NCBI GenBank assembly: GCA_013360565.1
Contig: JABWBI010000009.1
Location: 1 to 35,233 of the forward strand
Reading direction: 5' to 3'
Source of the DNA: Candidatus Sumerlaeia bacterium
Lineage (GTDB): Bacteria > Sumerlaeota > Sumerlaeia > JABWBI01
Length of the DNA: 35,233 bases
In this document: in pieces, positions 16,372 to 32,818 of the stretch
Layout of the letters: each line of letters begins with the position of its first letter
How positions within the stretch are numbered: position 1 is the first letter of the stretch
Made by a program: the position numbers and the translations under genes
The notes under the pieces: generated by a model
The model's input: only the letters and a program-made list of their open reading frames with translations
What the model was told of the DNA's origin: nothing
Database searches by the model: none

Positions 16372-17325
16372 ATGTCCCGTGTCTCCATCATCCTGCGCGT
16401 GAAGAACGAAGGCCGAACTCTCGGCCAAGTGCTCGAGGGCGTTGGGTTGCAGCGGGGAGTCGAGCCGCCGGAGCTCGTCGTCGTCGATTCGGGCTCGACG
16501 GATGACACCCTCGCCATCGCCGAACGGCACGGCGCGGCCATCGTCCGGATACGTCCGGAGGACTTCACCTGGGGTGGCGCAATCAACAGGGGCATCGAGG
16601 CCTCGTCGGGGGATATCGCCGTGATGCTCTCTGGGCACTGTGTGCCGGTGGACGAGCATTGGCTCCGCGAGCTGATCGCGCCCTTTGGGGCGCCGGAGGT
16701 CGCGGCGACGGCCAGCCGGCACGTCCCGGACCTGTGTGTCGATCCGCTGGAGGCGGTGGAGCTCGCCGAGTGGTTTCCACCGGGCGAGGCGCCGGTGGAG
16801 GCGGGGATCTACTCCAACTCGGCGGGCGCCGTGCGCCGTGCCGTCTGGGAGGTTCACCGCTTCGACGAGGGCCTGATGCTGTGTGAGGACGGAGAGTGGG
16901 CCATGCGCGTCCGGGCGGCCGGCCACCGGACGCTCTACTGCCCGCGCAGCCAAGTCGTGCACAGCCACAGACCGGCTGTGGATGTCGTCTATCGGCGCTG
17001 GTTCTGGCGCGCGTTCACCGGGGTGGCGTTCATCGAGGGAGCGCGTGACGGCCAGATTCTCTACCTCGGCTACAAGACGGCCAAGTATCTCTGGCAAGAC
17101 CTGCGGATGCTCTGGCGCGACGGACGGCCCTGGGCTTGGTGGCGTGCTCCGTTCTACGAGCTGGCGCGGCAGTGGGGAGCCTTCGCAGGGGCACGGCTTT
17201 CCCGGTCGGGGCGCGTCGGCCTGCGCGGACACGACTACGCAATCCGTGTTCCACGCCCCATCGCGCTCGTCGACCCCATCCTGCGAGGGCTGGAGCGCCC
17301 GGGGCGAAGCCATGTCTGCGGATGA
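16372..17325 (+). CDS. Family 2 glycosyltransferase
   Basis: 317-residue inverting glycosyltransferase with a GT-A fold. It opens with VSIILRVKNEGRTLGQVL and has the nucleotide-binding VVVDSGSTDDT (about 37-46). DFTWGGAINRGI occupies the place of the F-x-HG-x-x-RN motif seen in rhamnosyltransferase-like members. CEDGEWAMRVRAAGH supplies the E-D base region. The C-terminus is Trp/Arg-rich and may sit on the membrane, but no clear transmembrane helix is seen. I use ATG 16372 because the upstream 12 codons of the track ORF overlap the preceding gene. It is the fourth gene of the operon. Donor and acceptor sugars cannot be told. Confidence 0.9.
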   Translation: MSRVSIILRVKNEGRTLGQVLEGVGLQRGVEPPELVVVDSGSTDDTLAIAERHGAAIVRIRPEDFTWGGAINRGIEASSGDIAVMLSGHCVPVDEHWLRELIAPFGAPEVAATASRHVPDLCVDPLEAVELAEWFPPGEAPVEAGIYSNSAGAVRRAVWEVHRFDEGLMLCEDGEWAMRVRAAGHRTLYCPRSQVVHSHRPAVDVVYRRWFWRAFTGVAFIEGARDGQILYLGYKTAKYLWQDLRMLWRDGRPWAWWRAPFYELARQWGAFAGARLSRSGRVGLRGHDYAIRVPRPIALVDPILRGLERPGRSHVCG

Positions 17326-18418
17326 CCTCGCGAGCCATCACTTCACCGTTCACCACGACCGTGAGATCGACGGCCAGGTGCGGACGGATGTCGAGCACAT
17401 CCGCGATGCCACTCTGGCCACCCACCCTGGGGCGGTGGGCCTCTTCCTCGTGGGAGGATTCGGCCGAGGCGAGGGCGGTGTCGTGCAACGGGACGGGCGC
17501 TGGCGGCCGGCAAACGACTACGACTTCGAACTCATCACGCGCGGACCCGTGGATCATGGGGCGCTCCGCGACCTCGGCGTGCGTCTCGCGCGGGAGTGCG
17601 GCGTGCCGATGGTGCACATCGAGCACTCGCTCGCCTGGAAACAGCGCCTGCGTGGCCCGACGGAGTACACGGTCGACCTCCGCCTCGGCAGTCTGGCGCT
17701 GCATGACCCGCACGACATGCGGACGCGGCTGTGGCGGTGCCAGGCGCCCCGCATTCCGCTCACGGATGCGATGCAGACGCTCTTCACCCGGACGGCGGCG
17801 CTGCTGTGGTGCTTCGAGTCGCCAAGAGATTGGCGTCGGGCCGGGATGCCGGCGCGCTTCGATCTGGCGATCCAGGTCTCGAAGGCTCTTCTGGCCATCG
17901 AGGATGCCAGGCTCATCCGGGTCCGACGCTATCATCCCCTGTATGCGAAGCGTCTTCAGCGATTCTTGACCCTCGGCGCCGGCGAGTCGCTCGTCTCGGC
18001 CATGCGCTGGGCCACGGAGTTCAAACTCCGTCCCGATGCGACTTCGATTCCGGAGGACCTCGAGGGGCTGTGGTTCCGGGCCAGAGACTGGCTCCTGGCC
18101 GAAGCGTTTCAGCACGCGGGCGCGATGACGGGGCGACGTGTCGAATCCTGGAGGGACTTCGGCCAAGCCACGCGCTGGCGAAGCCTGCGAGGGCGCGACC
18201 GATGGCGCCTGCTGCGGAGCCGGGCCGTTTGGGAGCGTCACCGCGAGCTGGCACTCGTGAACATGCTCGCCCTCGCGGCGCTGCAGCGTGACGGCTCCAG
18301 CGATCCCAAACTGTCGGCGAGTGCGCGGCGGATCTGTGAGGACCTCGGCGAAGCCGCTGGCCCTGGCTGGAACGGCCTGCGGCTCGCGCTCCTGCGCCTT
18401 TTCGAGCGCCTCTGGTGA
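17312..18418 (+). CDS. Pol-beta-fold nucleotidyltransferase-like protein
   Basis: 368-residue protein with a nucleotidyltransferase signature: LFLVGGFGRGEG (residues 45-55) followed by NDYDFELI with the metal-binding D69 and D71. A third acidic residue may be in the strand VDLRLGSL. The remaining ~250 residues are helical and match nothing I recognise. The start is ATG 17312, which overlaps the end of the glycosyltransferase gene by 14 bases; the track ORF's start at 16883 lies inside that gene and is spurious. As the last member of the operon it probably acts on a glycan intermediate or transfers a nucleotide to a small acceptor, but neither is shown. It ends one base before the convergent stop of the UDP-galactopyranose mutase-like gene. 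Confidence 0.72.
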   Translation: MSADDLASHHFTVHHDREIDGQVRTDVEHIRDATLATHPGAVGLFLVGGFGRGEGGVVQRDGRWRPANDYDFELITRGPVDHGALRDLGVRLARECGVPMVHIEHSLAWKQRLRGPTEYTVDLRLGSLALHDPHDMRTRLWRCQAPRIPLTDAMQTLFTRTAALLWCFESPRDWRRAGMPARFDLAIQVSKALLAIEDARLIRVRRYHPLYAKRLQRFLTLGAGESLVSAMRWATEFKLRPDATSIPEDLEGLWFRARDWLLAEAFQHAGAMTGRRVESWRDFGQATRWRSLRGRDRWRLLRSRAVWERHRELALVNMLALAALQRDGSSDPKLSASARRICEDLGEAAGPGWNGLRLALLRLFERLW

Positions 18419-18419
18419 C

Positions 18420-19844
18420 TCAGGTGCCAACTGCGGCGGAGTCGATCGAGCGCATCCTCGCCCCGCCCTGGTTGACGAAGTCCGGACGGTGAATCGTTTC
18501 CTCCTCGGCGCCGAGCAGCAGATGCTCGGCGCACTCGACGCCCTGCATGAAGCCGTGGTCCTGATTGGAGACCTCGTACTTCCAGGCGCCGAAGCGGCCC
18601 CGGGAGTGGATGCCCTTCGCCTCGAGGGCCGGCAACAGGGCTTCGAGCGCGGCGTCGCGCCCGAGGCTCGGTGTGGGGTACCCATAGGGAAGGCGGCGGA
18701 CGTAGACATTGTCGACGAGGTCCACCGAGTCGATCAGGCGCGTGTTGACCATGCCCTGCAAGACATCGTCGAGCACACGGCCGGGGTCCACCGGCTTGAC
18801 GGGCGACTCGCTGACCTCGGCCATGAGCGACCAGCAGCGCGCGATGTCCGGCACATTGTTGGGGGAGTAGTTCGAGAAGACGGTGACGCGGTAGAAGGGG
18901 CAGTTGGCCTCGGGGAAGTACATCCAACACTTGGTGCTGATGTGCGGACCCGGGGTCCCCTTCACTCCGACACCGACGACGTGGGTTGCGCTGTGGACGA
19001 GCCCCTGGGCGGCTGCGCGCCAGCTCTCGACGCCGGTGATCTCGGCGAGCATATCGAGAGGGATCGTCGAGACGAGCGCGTCGTACGGGCGATCCGAGCC
19101 GTCGCTGAAGTGCGCGACGCGGCGTTCGGTGTCGAGAGCAGTCAGCCGCGTGTGGAAGTGGATCCTGCCGGGCGGCAGGCGACGGCCGAGTTCGCGCCAG
19201 ATGGCGCCCGTCCCGCCGTGGAGAGGGAAGCGGAAGGTGGCATTGGGACCCCACGAGACATCGTCTCTTTCGAGGATAATGTTGCGGAGCACACGCGCGA
19301 GGTCGACGGGGGCGACGCGCTCGCCGACCCAGTCTGTCGCCAACTCACGGGGAGGATAGGCCCAGACCTTGAAATTGTACGGCGTCATGAAGTGCTTGGC
19401 GAGCCCCTCACCGAAGTAGTGCAGGATGAAGGTCTCGAAATCCCGTGGCCGCTCTCTCACCTCGGGTCTCTGAAGCAGCCCCTCGACACACTCCCAGAGC
19501 GCCTCCCGGGGCAGGCGCCGAATGTTGTTCTGGAAGGGGTAGGGGACGAATCTCCCGGCGATCCAGACCCACGACTCACGCTCGTGGCGGATCCACCCGT
19601 CCTCGCCGAGGAGCGAGTCCATCATGCGGTCGAAGTACTCATAGTGGGAGAACTGAACGTGCCCGCCGTGGTCCCAGGTGTAGCCCCCCGCGTCGGTGAC
19701 GGACCCGGCCAGTCCCCCGGCCTCGCCAGTGGCCTCCACCACGTGCCAGTCCTCGTGGCCGAGCTCATGGAGCCGCCATGCGGCGCCCAGACCGGTGGGG
19801 CCGGCGCCGATGATCAGAATCCGCTTGGGGGGATGGACTGCCAT
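18420..19844 (-). CDS. glf: Eukaryotic-type UDP-galactopyranose mutase-like flavoenzyme
   Basis: 474-residue FAD protein predicted to interconvert UDP-galactopyranose and UDP-galactofuranose. The Rossmann motif is [13 protein letters not shown]. Blocks I recall from fungal UDP-galactopyranose mutase occur in order: [87 protein letters not shown] and [14 protein letters not shown]. They include the arginine of PFYR that binds the UDP pyrophosphate in the fungal enzyme. Ordinary bacterial Glf is shorter and lacks most of these. The start is ATG 19844 (GTG 19853 is possible). It lies opposite the glycosyltransferase operon, which supports a role in glycan synthesis. An alternative is another amine-oxidase-like flavoenzyme with the same fold. 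Confidence 0.83.
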
Positions 19845-19874
19845 GACGCTCACAGGGACGGAGAGTGCCCCGGC

Positions 19875-31186: not shown

Positions 31187-32818
31187 GTGTCCTGTCCTGA
31201 GACCATTCCGATCGAGGCCGATTCCCCCGGACTCAGTGCCACGTCTGGCGTGTCAGATGCTGGACTGGTGGAACGTGCCCGGCAGGGGGATGCGGAGGCG
31301 TTCGGATTCCTGGTGGAGCGTCACTTCGAGGTGGTCCACCTGATCGCGTATTCGCGCGTGCGCGACCGCGATGCGGCAGAGGACATTGCACAGGACGTCT
31401 TTGTGAAGGCCTTTCTCTCCCTTGAGCACCTGCGGGATCCGGGAAAATTCCGGCCCTGGTTGAGCCAGATCGCCCGTCACTTGGCGCTCAATTGGCGGCG
31501 AGACCGCGGAACGGAGCGGGGGAGAGCGATCTCGCTCGAAGAGATACCGTCGGAGCACATGGACCGCGATGGGGCGCGGCCGGGGGATCAGATCGCGGCG
31601 AGCCAAGAATCGGTCGAAGTGGGCCGGGCCCTGAGGCGGCTGCCGGAGGACCTGCGCGAGGTGGTGGTTCTCCGCTTCGTGGGGGATCTCAGCAACGTGG
31701 AGATTGCGCGACAGCTCGACGTTCATCCCGCGACAGTGGGCAGACATCTCGAGCGAGCCATGAAGATGATGAAAGCCGGGCTCGAGCCGCTCTTGCGGGG
31801 GCAGCAGGCCGCGATCCGGCCGCGGGTGTCGGCCCTTGCCCGGACCACGGCGGCAATTGCCGCGATCTCTGCCCTGCCGCCGGCGGCCAGGGCCGCGGCG
31901 ACTCAACAGGCGATGGCCCTCACGGAGAGAATCCTGCCTTCCGCGGGGCGCGCGGCTGGCCGGAGCGGCGGCGTGGCTCTCCTCTGGCGCACGCTTTCGC
32001 TTCCGCGGCAAATCGCGGTGTTGGCCACCGGCGCGGCCCTGATCTTGTCGGCAGGCTTGCTCTCATTCAACGTCGTGCGATCTCCGGCGATCCTCACGAA
32101 CTCGATCGGGATGCGGCTGCGGCCAATTCCGGGGGGGAGTTTCCTCATGGGAAGCCCGGAATCAGAGCCTGGCCGGCGCGTGACGGAGGGGCCGGTCCAC
32201 CGGGTGACGGTGCGACCATTCTACATGGGGGAAACCGAGGTCACCGTCGAGCAGTACCAGCAGTTCTTGGCAGCCACGGGCTTCCGCACCCCCCAGTTCT
32301 GGGAAGTCGTACAACGCCCTCATCCCAAGCTTCCGGCCCTGTACATCCGCTGGGAAGATGCCAAGGCCTTCTGCGATTGGCTATCCCGTGTGGAGGGAGT
32401 CACCTACCGGTTGCCGACCGAGGCCGAGTGGGAGTATGCGTGCCGGGCAGGCTCGACGACCACCTTTCATTGGGGCGATGAGATCACGGCGGCGGAGGCG
32501 AACTTCGACCTCCTCGGCGGAGAGGACGAGCAGAATCCACCTGTCAATGTGGGGTCTTATCCGCCCAACGCCTTCGGCCTTCATGACATGGCTGGCAATG
32601 CCCGCGAGTGGTGTCTGGACCTGTGGCACGACAACTATGTCGGTGCCCCCGTCGATGGGAGCGCCTGGGTCGAGGGCGCGGAGGCCTCACTCCCGGTCTA
32701 CCGGGGAGGCTCGTTCTGGGGCGGGGCGGAGATGTGCCGGTCGGCGTTCCGCAACGTGTGTACCCACCCGGAAAGCCACTTCAATCAGGGATTCCGTGTC
32801 GTCCGTGCGCTCGACTGA
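31187..32818 (+). CDS. ECF sigma factor fused through a transmembrane helix to a formylglycine-generating-enzyme (SUMF1) domain
   Basis: One uninterrupted 543-residue ORF. Residues ~26-105 are sigma region 2 (LVERARQGDAEAFGFLVERH, RDRDAAEDIAQDVFVKAF). Residues ~145-200 are region 4 (LRRLPEDLREVVVLRF, then the helix-turn-helix NVEIARQLDVHPATVGRHLERA). An Ala-rich linker leads to one helix (about 276-298). Residues ~303-541 form an FGE-sulfatase/SUMF1 domain: IPGGSFLMGSPESEPGR, GETEVTVEQYQQFL, LPTEAEWEYACRAG, NAFGLHDMAGNAREW and YRGGSFWGGAEMCRSAFRN...GFRVVR. In true FGE the RGGS motif is followed by C-x4-C; here the first is G512 and only C517 remains, so catalysis is doubtful. It probably senses an envelope signal. 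The start is GTG 31187 behind GGGGTGA. No separate anti-sigma gene is adjacent. Confidence 0.92.
   Translation: MSCPETIPIEADSPGLSATSGVSDAGLVERARQGDAEAFGFLVERHFEVVHLIAYSRVRDRDAAEDIAQDVFVKAFLSLEHLRDPGKFRPWLSQIARHLALNWRRDRGTERGRAISLEEIPSEHMDRDGARPGDQIAASQESVEVGRALRRLPEDLREVVVLRFVGDLSNVEIARQLDVHPATVGRHLERAMKMMKAGLEPLLRGQQAAIRPRVSALARTTAAIAAISALPPAARAAATQQAMALTERILPSAGRAAGRSGGVALLWRTLSLPRQIAVLATGAALILSAGLLSFNVVRSPAILTNSIGMRLRPIPGGSFLMGSPESEPGRRVTEGPVHRVTVRPFYMGETEVTVEQYQQFLAATGFRTPQFWEVVQRPHPKLPALYIRWEDAKAFCDWLSRVEGVTYRLPTEAEWEYACRAGSTTTFHWGDEITAAEANFDLLGGEDEQNPPVNVGSYPPNAFGLHDMAGNAREWCLDLWHDNYVGAPVDGSAWVEGAEASLPVYRGGSFWGGAEMCRSAFRNVCTHPESHFNQGFRVVRALD

Follow-up and report, generated by a model that had tools for sequence, protein, structure and literature searches.

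The window analysed here is a stretch of 35,233 nucleotides of a Candidatus Sumerlaeia assembly (GCA_013360565.1, contig JABWBI010000009.1). It carries on its minus strand, at 18420..19853, an intact ORF of 477 codons for a UDP-galactopyranose mutase (UGM) of the eukaryotic type, recognised by phmmer and by predicted fold. The start codon is a GTG at 19853, with an in-frame ATG at codon 4 (19844) as the alternative. Codon-position composition of the ORF is coding-like (GC3 0.87, GC2 0.47) and G+C around the gene is flat at ~0.67. The UGM gene is divergent from lepA (likely start 19984) and convergent with a gene of an unknown family on the plus strand (17312-18418), which comes after a GT2 glycosyltransferase gene and encodes a nucleotidyltransferase-like VGGFGRGEGG motif; a longer frame overlapping this gene gave no Pfam match. 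The UGM gene is a singleton, with the GT2 gene ~1.1 kb past its end on the opposite strand. It lies outside any glycan operon, which we count against the functional reading given below. Elsewhere in the window, a single plus-strand frame (31187-32818) fuses an ECF-type sigma-70 factor to a formylglycine-generating-enzyme (FGE-sulfatase) domain, an unusual fusion.

In phmmer searches against the PDB, the top match was Trypanosoma cruzi UGM (4dsg, E = 3e-152, residues 10-462), followed by Aspergillus fumigatus UGM (AfUGM, E about 1e-137), and the nearest classical bacterial Glf was reached at E = 0.006 over residues 9-56 only. The motif blocks of UGM listed in an earlier, sequence-only reading of this DNA were present in the window protein ([27 protein letters not shown]). 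That reading placed the end of the gene at 19844, which is the in-frame ATG, and had also proposed a close match to the fungal form. The eukaryotic type was upheld, but by aligned identity the protein is nearer to the trypanosome enzyme (52%) than to that of Aspergillus (46%). Given that the latter two are 49% identical in the same alignment, the bacterial protein is as near to the eukaryotic UGMs as these are to each other. In reviews, prokaryotic and eukaryotic UGMs are treated as separate classes, with 14-18% identity between them (PMC3624792).

Profile searches placed the protein neither with ordinary Glf nor with another amine-oxidase-like family, the two outcomes against which the sequence-only reading was to be checked. 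Pfam returned only the superfamily model Amino_oxidase (PF01593) and general FAD/NAD-binding models. The GLF model (PF03275) had no match at E <= 1 in the protein and none in its genome, and TIGR00031 was absent from the best 25 NCBIfam matches. No NCBIfam model scored above its cut-off. The best were unnamed PRK07208 profiles at under half their cut-offs, a pattern repeated in relatives drawn from Bacteroidota, Pseudomonadota and one archaeal metagenome-assembled genome (MAG). The PRK07208-type FAD proteins (NF005547, NF005548) show detectable full-length similarity (E 1.6e-49), but score 169 bits where the cut-off is 380. Classical Glf proteins (PF03275, TIGR00031; Klebsiella 2bi7, Deinococcus 3hdq) belong to the same superfamily and presumably catalyse the same reaction, whereas the window protein lacks the PF03275 match, is reached by phmmer at the Rossmann start only and is ~100 residues longer. 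With the eukaryotic UGMs (T. cruzi 4dsg/4dsh; A. fumigatus 3uka and others) it has in common the key substrate, pyrophosphate and flavin residues, the Gly-Gly-His loop, the fold and a length of ~480 residues. It differs in its bacterial host and in being known from sequence and predicted fold. AfUGM also has a ~20-residue insert near 346-365 that is absent from both the window protein and T. cruzi UGM. A paralogue in the same genome (27-29% identical) lacks equivalents of AfUGM Gly62, Phe66, Gln107, Asn163, Asn207 and Tyr453.

The FAD-binding GxGxxG motif reads GAGPTG (residues 16-21; 19791..19808, minus strand) in sequence and alignment, and the histidine loop G63-G64-H65 (19659..19667, minus strand) maps onto AfUGM G61-G62-H63. 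This Gly-Gly-His loop has been described as unique to eukaryotic UGMs (PMC3624792). Twenty-two AfUGM positions, chosen as functionally important from general knowledge and reviews and numbered as in the crystallised chain corrected by one, were compared by alignment. Twenty-one were identical in the window protein (G61, G62, H63, F66, R91, Y104, Q107, F158, N163, W167, R182, N207, W315, Y317, R327, Y334, Y419, R447, Y453, N457 and D459), with only L395 differing, and each of the 21 was conserved in all, or all but one, of 105 bacterial rows. On the minus strand, the aligned equivalent of Arg182 is R179 (19317..19319), that of Arg327 is R322 (18888..18890), and those of Tyr453 and Asn457 fall within YEVSN (residues 426-430; 18564..18578). 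We take Arg182, in the 180s flap, and Arg327 to contact the pyrophosphate, and Gln107, which is Q108 here, to contact the uridine. The equivalent of Ser93 is also conserved (S94) and, together with R92 for Arg91, may bear on direct reduction by NADPH. The AlphaFold model, built from an input alignment of 20 rows, had a pLDDT of 88 and matched T. cruzi UGM (4dsh_B) with a TM score of 0.91-0.94 and an rmsd of 1.6 A, and the predicted overall fold includes the extra eukaryotic elements.

We consider it very probable that the gene encodes a working UGM flavoenzyme of the eukaryotic class that makes UDP-galactofuranose, and that its family is an old bacterial one, dispersed among phyla by transfer. 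The sequence family, the conserved active site, the predicted fold, the presence of GalE and a distribution complementary to that of Glf all support the UGM assignment. GalE (UDP-glucose 4-epimerase) was found above its curated cut-off in the same genome, through which a supply of UDP-galactose would be provided. The flavin-adduct chemistry has been worked out for the T. cruzi and Aspergillus enzymes (PMC3509576, PMC3624792), and all residues checked that serve it appear, by alignment, to be present in the window protein. What we infer for this enzyme, in catalytic activity, substrate preference, reductant and final glycan, is the following. NADPH would reduce the FAD, N5 of the reduced flavin would attack the anomeric carbon C1 of UDP-galactopyranose with departure of UDP, and the flavin-sugar adduct would open to an iminium. 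The flavin-bound sugar would then re-close as a five-membered furanose ring and be re-attacked by UDP, giving UDP-galactofuranose that glycosyltransferases would use for surface glycans. No report of mutase activity in a bacterial member of the eukaryotic class was found in the literature searched.

The same mechanism could instead serve the ring contraction of UDP-GalNAc, UDP-arabinopyranose, a dTDP/GDP-6-deoxysugar or some other nucleotide sugar, an alternative we regard as unlikely. A change of specificity would be compatible with the sequence alone, classical Glf proteins include known sugar-substrate variants, and two or three copies of the gene occur in some Verrucomicrobiota. However, the protein agrees fully with AfUGM at Gln107, in the Arg/Tyr pyrophosphate set and at the residues of the sugar site, and the distribution in Sumerlaeota is complementary to that of classical Glf. 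Far less probable still is that the protein only resembles UGM and is some other oxidoreductase of the FAD amine-oxidase type, such as a relative of protoporphyrinogen oxidases or desaturases. The Pfam superfamily match and the unnamed PRK07208 models would fit such a protein, but the UGM matches are full-length, the UGM active-site residues are conserved and the named oxidase models all fall under their cut-offs (TIGR00562, 13 bits versus 97.85; PRK11883 models, about 20 bits or fewer versus >400). Protoporphyrinogen oxidases, the first non-UGM fold matches, reach a TM score of only 0.67-0.77.

With each species represented by one genome, a scan recovered 80 loci at 52-73% identity to the window protein. 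Their hosts were Sumerlaeota, Acidobacteriota, Verrucomicrobiota, Bacteroidota, Pseudomonadota, Gemmatimonadota, Planctomycetota, Thermodesulfobacteriota, Myxococcota, Chloroflexota, Armatimonadota, Omnitrophota and one Woesearchaeota MAG. Full-length relatives thus occur in ~12 bacterial phyla and one archaeal MAG. Many carriers are MAGs, for which single phylum assignments may be wrong, and several are isolates, including Spirosoma, Flectobacillus and Pseudarcicella (Bacteroidota) and Thiocapsa marina (Pseudomonadota). The eukaryotic type was present in 27 of 40 Sumerlaeota genomes, compared with 2/198 in Bacteroidota, 5/150 in Gemmatimonadota and 10/195 in Verrucomicrobiota (presence thresholds 1e-40 and 1e-60; the tallies take in a few divergent members). 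It is therefore near-standard in Sumerlaeota and sporadic elsewhere (1-5%). Some Verrucomicrobiota genomes, such as G574 (L134, L143, L146) and G467 (L136, L144), carry two or three eukaryotic-type copies from different clades, and the two in G467 are ~1 kb apart.

Classical Glf (PF03275 above cut-off) was found in 7 of the 40 Sumerlaeota genomes, none of which carried the eukaryotic type. This mutual exclusion was significant (Fisher one-sided, P = 9e-5, relatedness ignored; P = 3e-4 once the two most divergent members are left out), though the genomes are related rather than independent and these values overstate the case. Twenty of the genomes had a completeness of 90% or more and a contamination of 5% or less. 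Of these, 16 had the eukaryotic type, two the classical type and two neither, so that exactly one UGM type was present in 18/20. Three families (f7, f11 and f12) each held genomes of both sorts, indicating that the switch occurred more than once. In Verrucomicrobiota (n = 195), ten genomes had the eukaryotic type, 43 the classical type and none both, an exclusivity that alone was not significant (P = 0.077). Outside Sumerlaeota, at least 4 of 69 eukaryotic-type carriers also had a strong full-length classical match, and two further carriers had weak partial ones. Exclusion is therefore a tendency and no rule. The complementary distribution suggests that both types do the same job, namely UDP-galactofuranose synthesis. 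Sumerlaeota loci carrying classical Glf had no gene order in common with those carrying the eukaryotic type, so the swap looks functional rather than in place.

The phylogeny comprised 90 rows with only two eukaryotic sequences, rooted on a sister family of 30-33% identity. In the best tree the two eukaryotic sequences joined a planctomycete and Gemmatimonadota (86/80), in a group nested within the bacterial radiation by several branches of good support (98/98, 95/89, 95/98). Long-branch attraction would be expected to draw the eukaryotes to the long outgroup, and they were placed elsewhere. Constraining the bacterial rows as a whole to be monophyletic cost only 10.5 log-likelihood units and was not rejected (AU test, P = 0.337). 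The phylogeny is thus compatible with a direction from bacteria to eukaryotes but falls short of proving it. A single clade of Sumerlaeota sequences, the group being set by taxonomy, was rejected (P = 0.0019), demonstrating that the gene moved between bacterial phyla. We find the case evenly poised for a broader, two-part proposal. In it, fungi and trypanosomes would have gained their 'eukaryotic' UGM from bacteria, as a branch of an old bacterial enzyme family, and in Sumerlaeota this form would be the standard galactofuranose enzyme, swapped one-for-one with classical Glf, with galactofuranose glycans predicted almost throughout this uncultured phylum.

It is highly improbable that this bacterium recently took up the gene from a fungus or a protist, or that the gene reached the assembly as eukaryotic contamination. 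The 'eukaryotic-type' name and the identity to eukaryotic enzymes would speak for such an origin, but the nearest relatives are all bacterial (73%, 62% and 59% identity), and the closest is a MAG titled Candidatus Sumerlaeota, which shares its family with the genome studied here. Furthermore, the gene is intron-free, has the local G+C and sits beside a lepA that shares 62-69% identity with its full-length counterparts elsewhere in Sumerlaeota, while eukaryotes nest within bacteria in the best tree. With its nearest relative in the same family and its neighbouring lepA of the Sumerlaeota type, the UGM gene is native to the bacterium's assembly rather than a fungal contaminant. Of the two origins offered by the sequence-only reading, an old bacterial lineage of the eukaryotic type is borne out by membership in a broad bacterial family. 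Horizontal transfer is detected between bacterial phyla, and a recent gain from fungi is not supported.

In other genomes, genes of one glycosyltransferase cluster directly adjoined the UGM gene in 38 of 73 loci, on the same strand in 37 of these 38, with Bacteroidota over-represented among them; all five cluster members checked in Pfam were PF00535 (GT2). We count this adjacency in favour of the UGM reading. None of the window neighbours (GT2, phosphodiesterase, PHP and APS kinase genes) was found beside the UGM gene in the other loci, and a conserved genomic position was rejected on these grounds. No GlfT2 or mycobacterial-type galactofuranosyltransferase (PF17994) was found in the 40 Sumerlaeota genomes, which also counts against the functional reading. 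As longest-ORF calling picks antisense ORFs in G+C-rich DNA, we make no detailed operon claims for the Sumerlaeota loci. In one further Sumerlaeota genome (G019; L163, 4650-7757) classical glf begins 46 bases downstream of lepA. It lies on the other side of lepA than the UGM gene in the window, and adjacency was seen in these two genomes only. In the single-contig genome G035, lepA and the UGM gene are far apart, and we therefore treat adjacency as coincidence.

The existence of a broad bacterial group within the 'eukaryotic' class means that the eukaryote/prokaryote split of this drug-target family fails. Its bacterial members would be convenient models for the fungal and trypanosome drug target, and the group offers a possible source of the eukaryotic UGM gene. 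We found no paper describing such a group in the open-licence literature searched. At least where it treats UGM, a study of algal genes in Ciona reports the enzyme in Ciona, algae and bacteria including cyanobacteria, with the two classes not separated there (PMC3494510). What is new here is an informative distribution of a known enzyme class; no new enzyme class is claimed. Since the family has no named NCBIfam model, and more distant plasmid-borne relatives in Streptomyces (38-40% identity) are recorded as "FAD-dependent oxidoreductase", counts of bacterial genomes able to make galactofuranose are probably too low.

More distant relatives were also seen. A divergent Sumerlaeota member (L029, genome G038; 38% identity to the window protein) has F66 changed to C, N207 to Y, Y334 to F, Y419 to N and the second loop glycine to T, and from these replacements its substrate may be altered or its function may be in the course of being lost. 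Sequences from Sumerlaeota (L031, G039), Bacteroidota (L126, G229) and Gemmatimonadota (L132, G311) form a third family, which is the sister group of the eukaryotic-type UGMs and shares ~30-33% identity with them. L031, the one member checked residue by residue, retains equivalents of Q107, N163, W167, R182, N207, R327, Y453 and N457 and is without the first loop glycine and Tyr334; by sequence this family is possibly another nucleotide-sugar mutase. Phage carriage was considered and set aside, as two faecal phage records match at 25-27% only and are too distant. Two IMG/VR contigs (L147 and L148) encode UGMs that are 55-56% identical.
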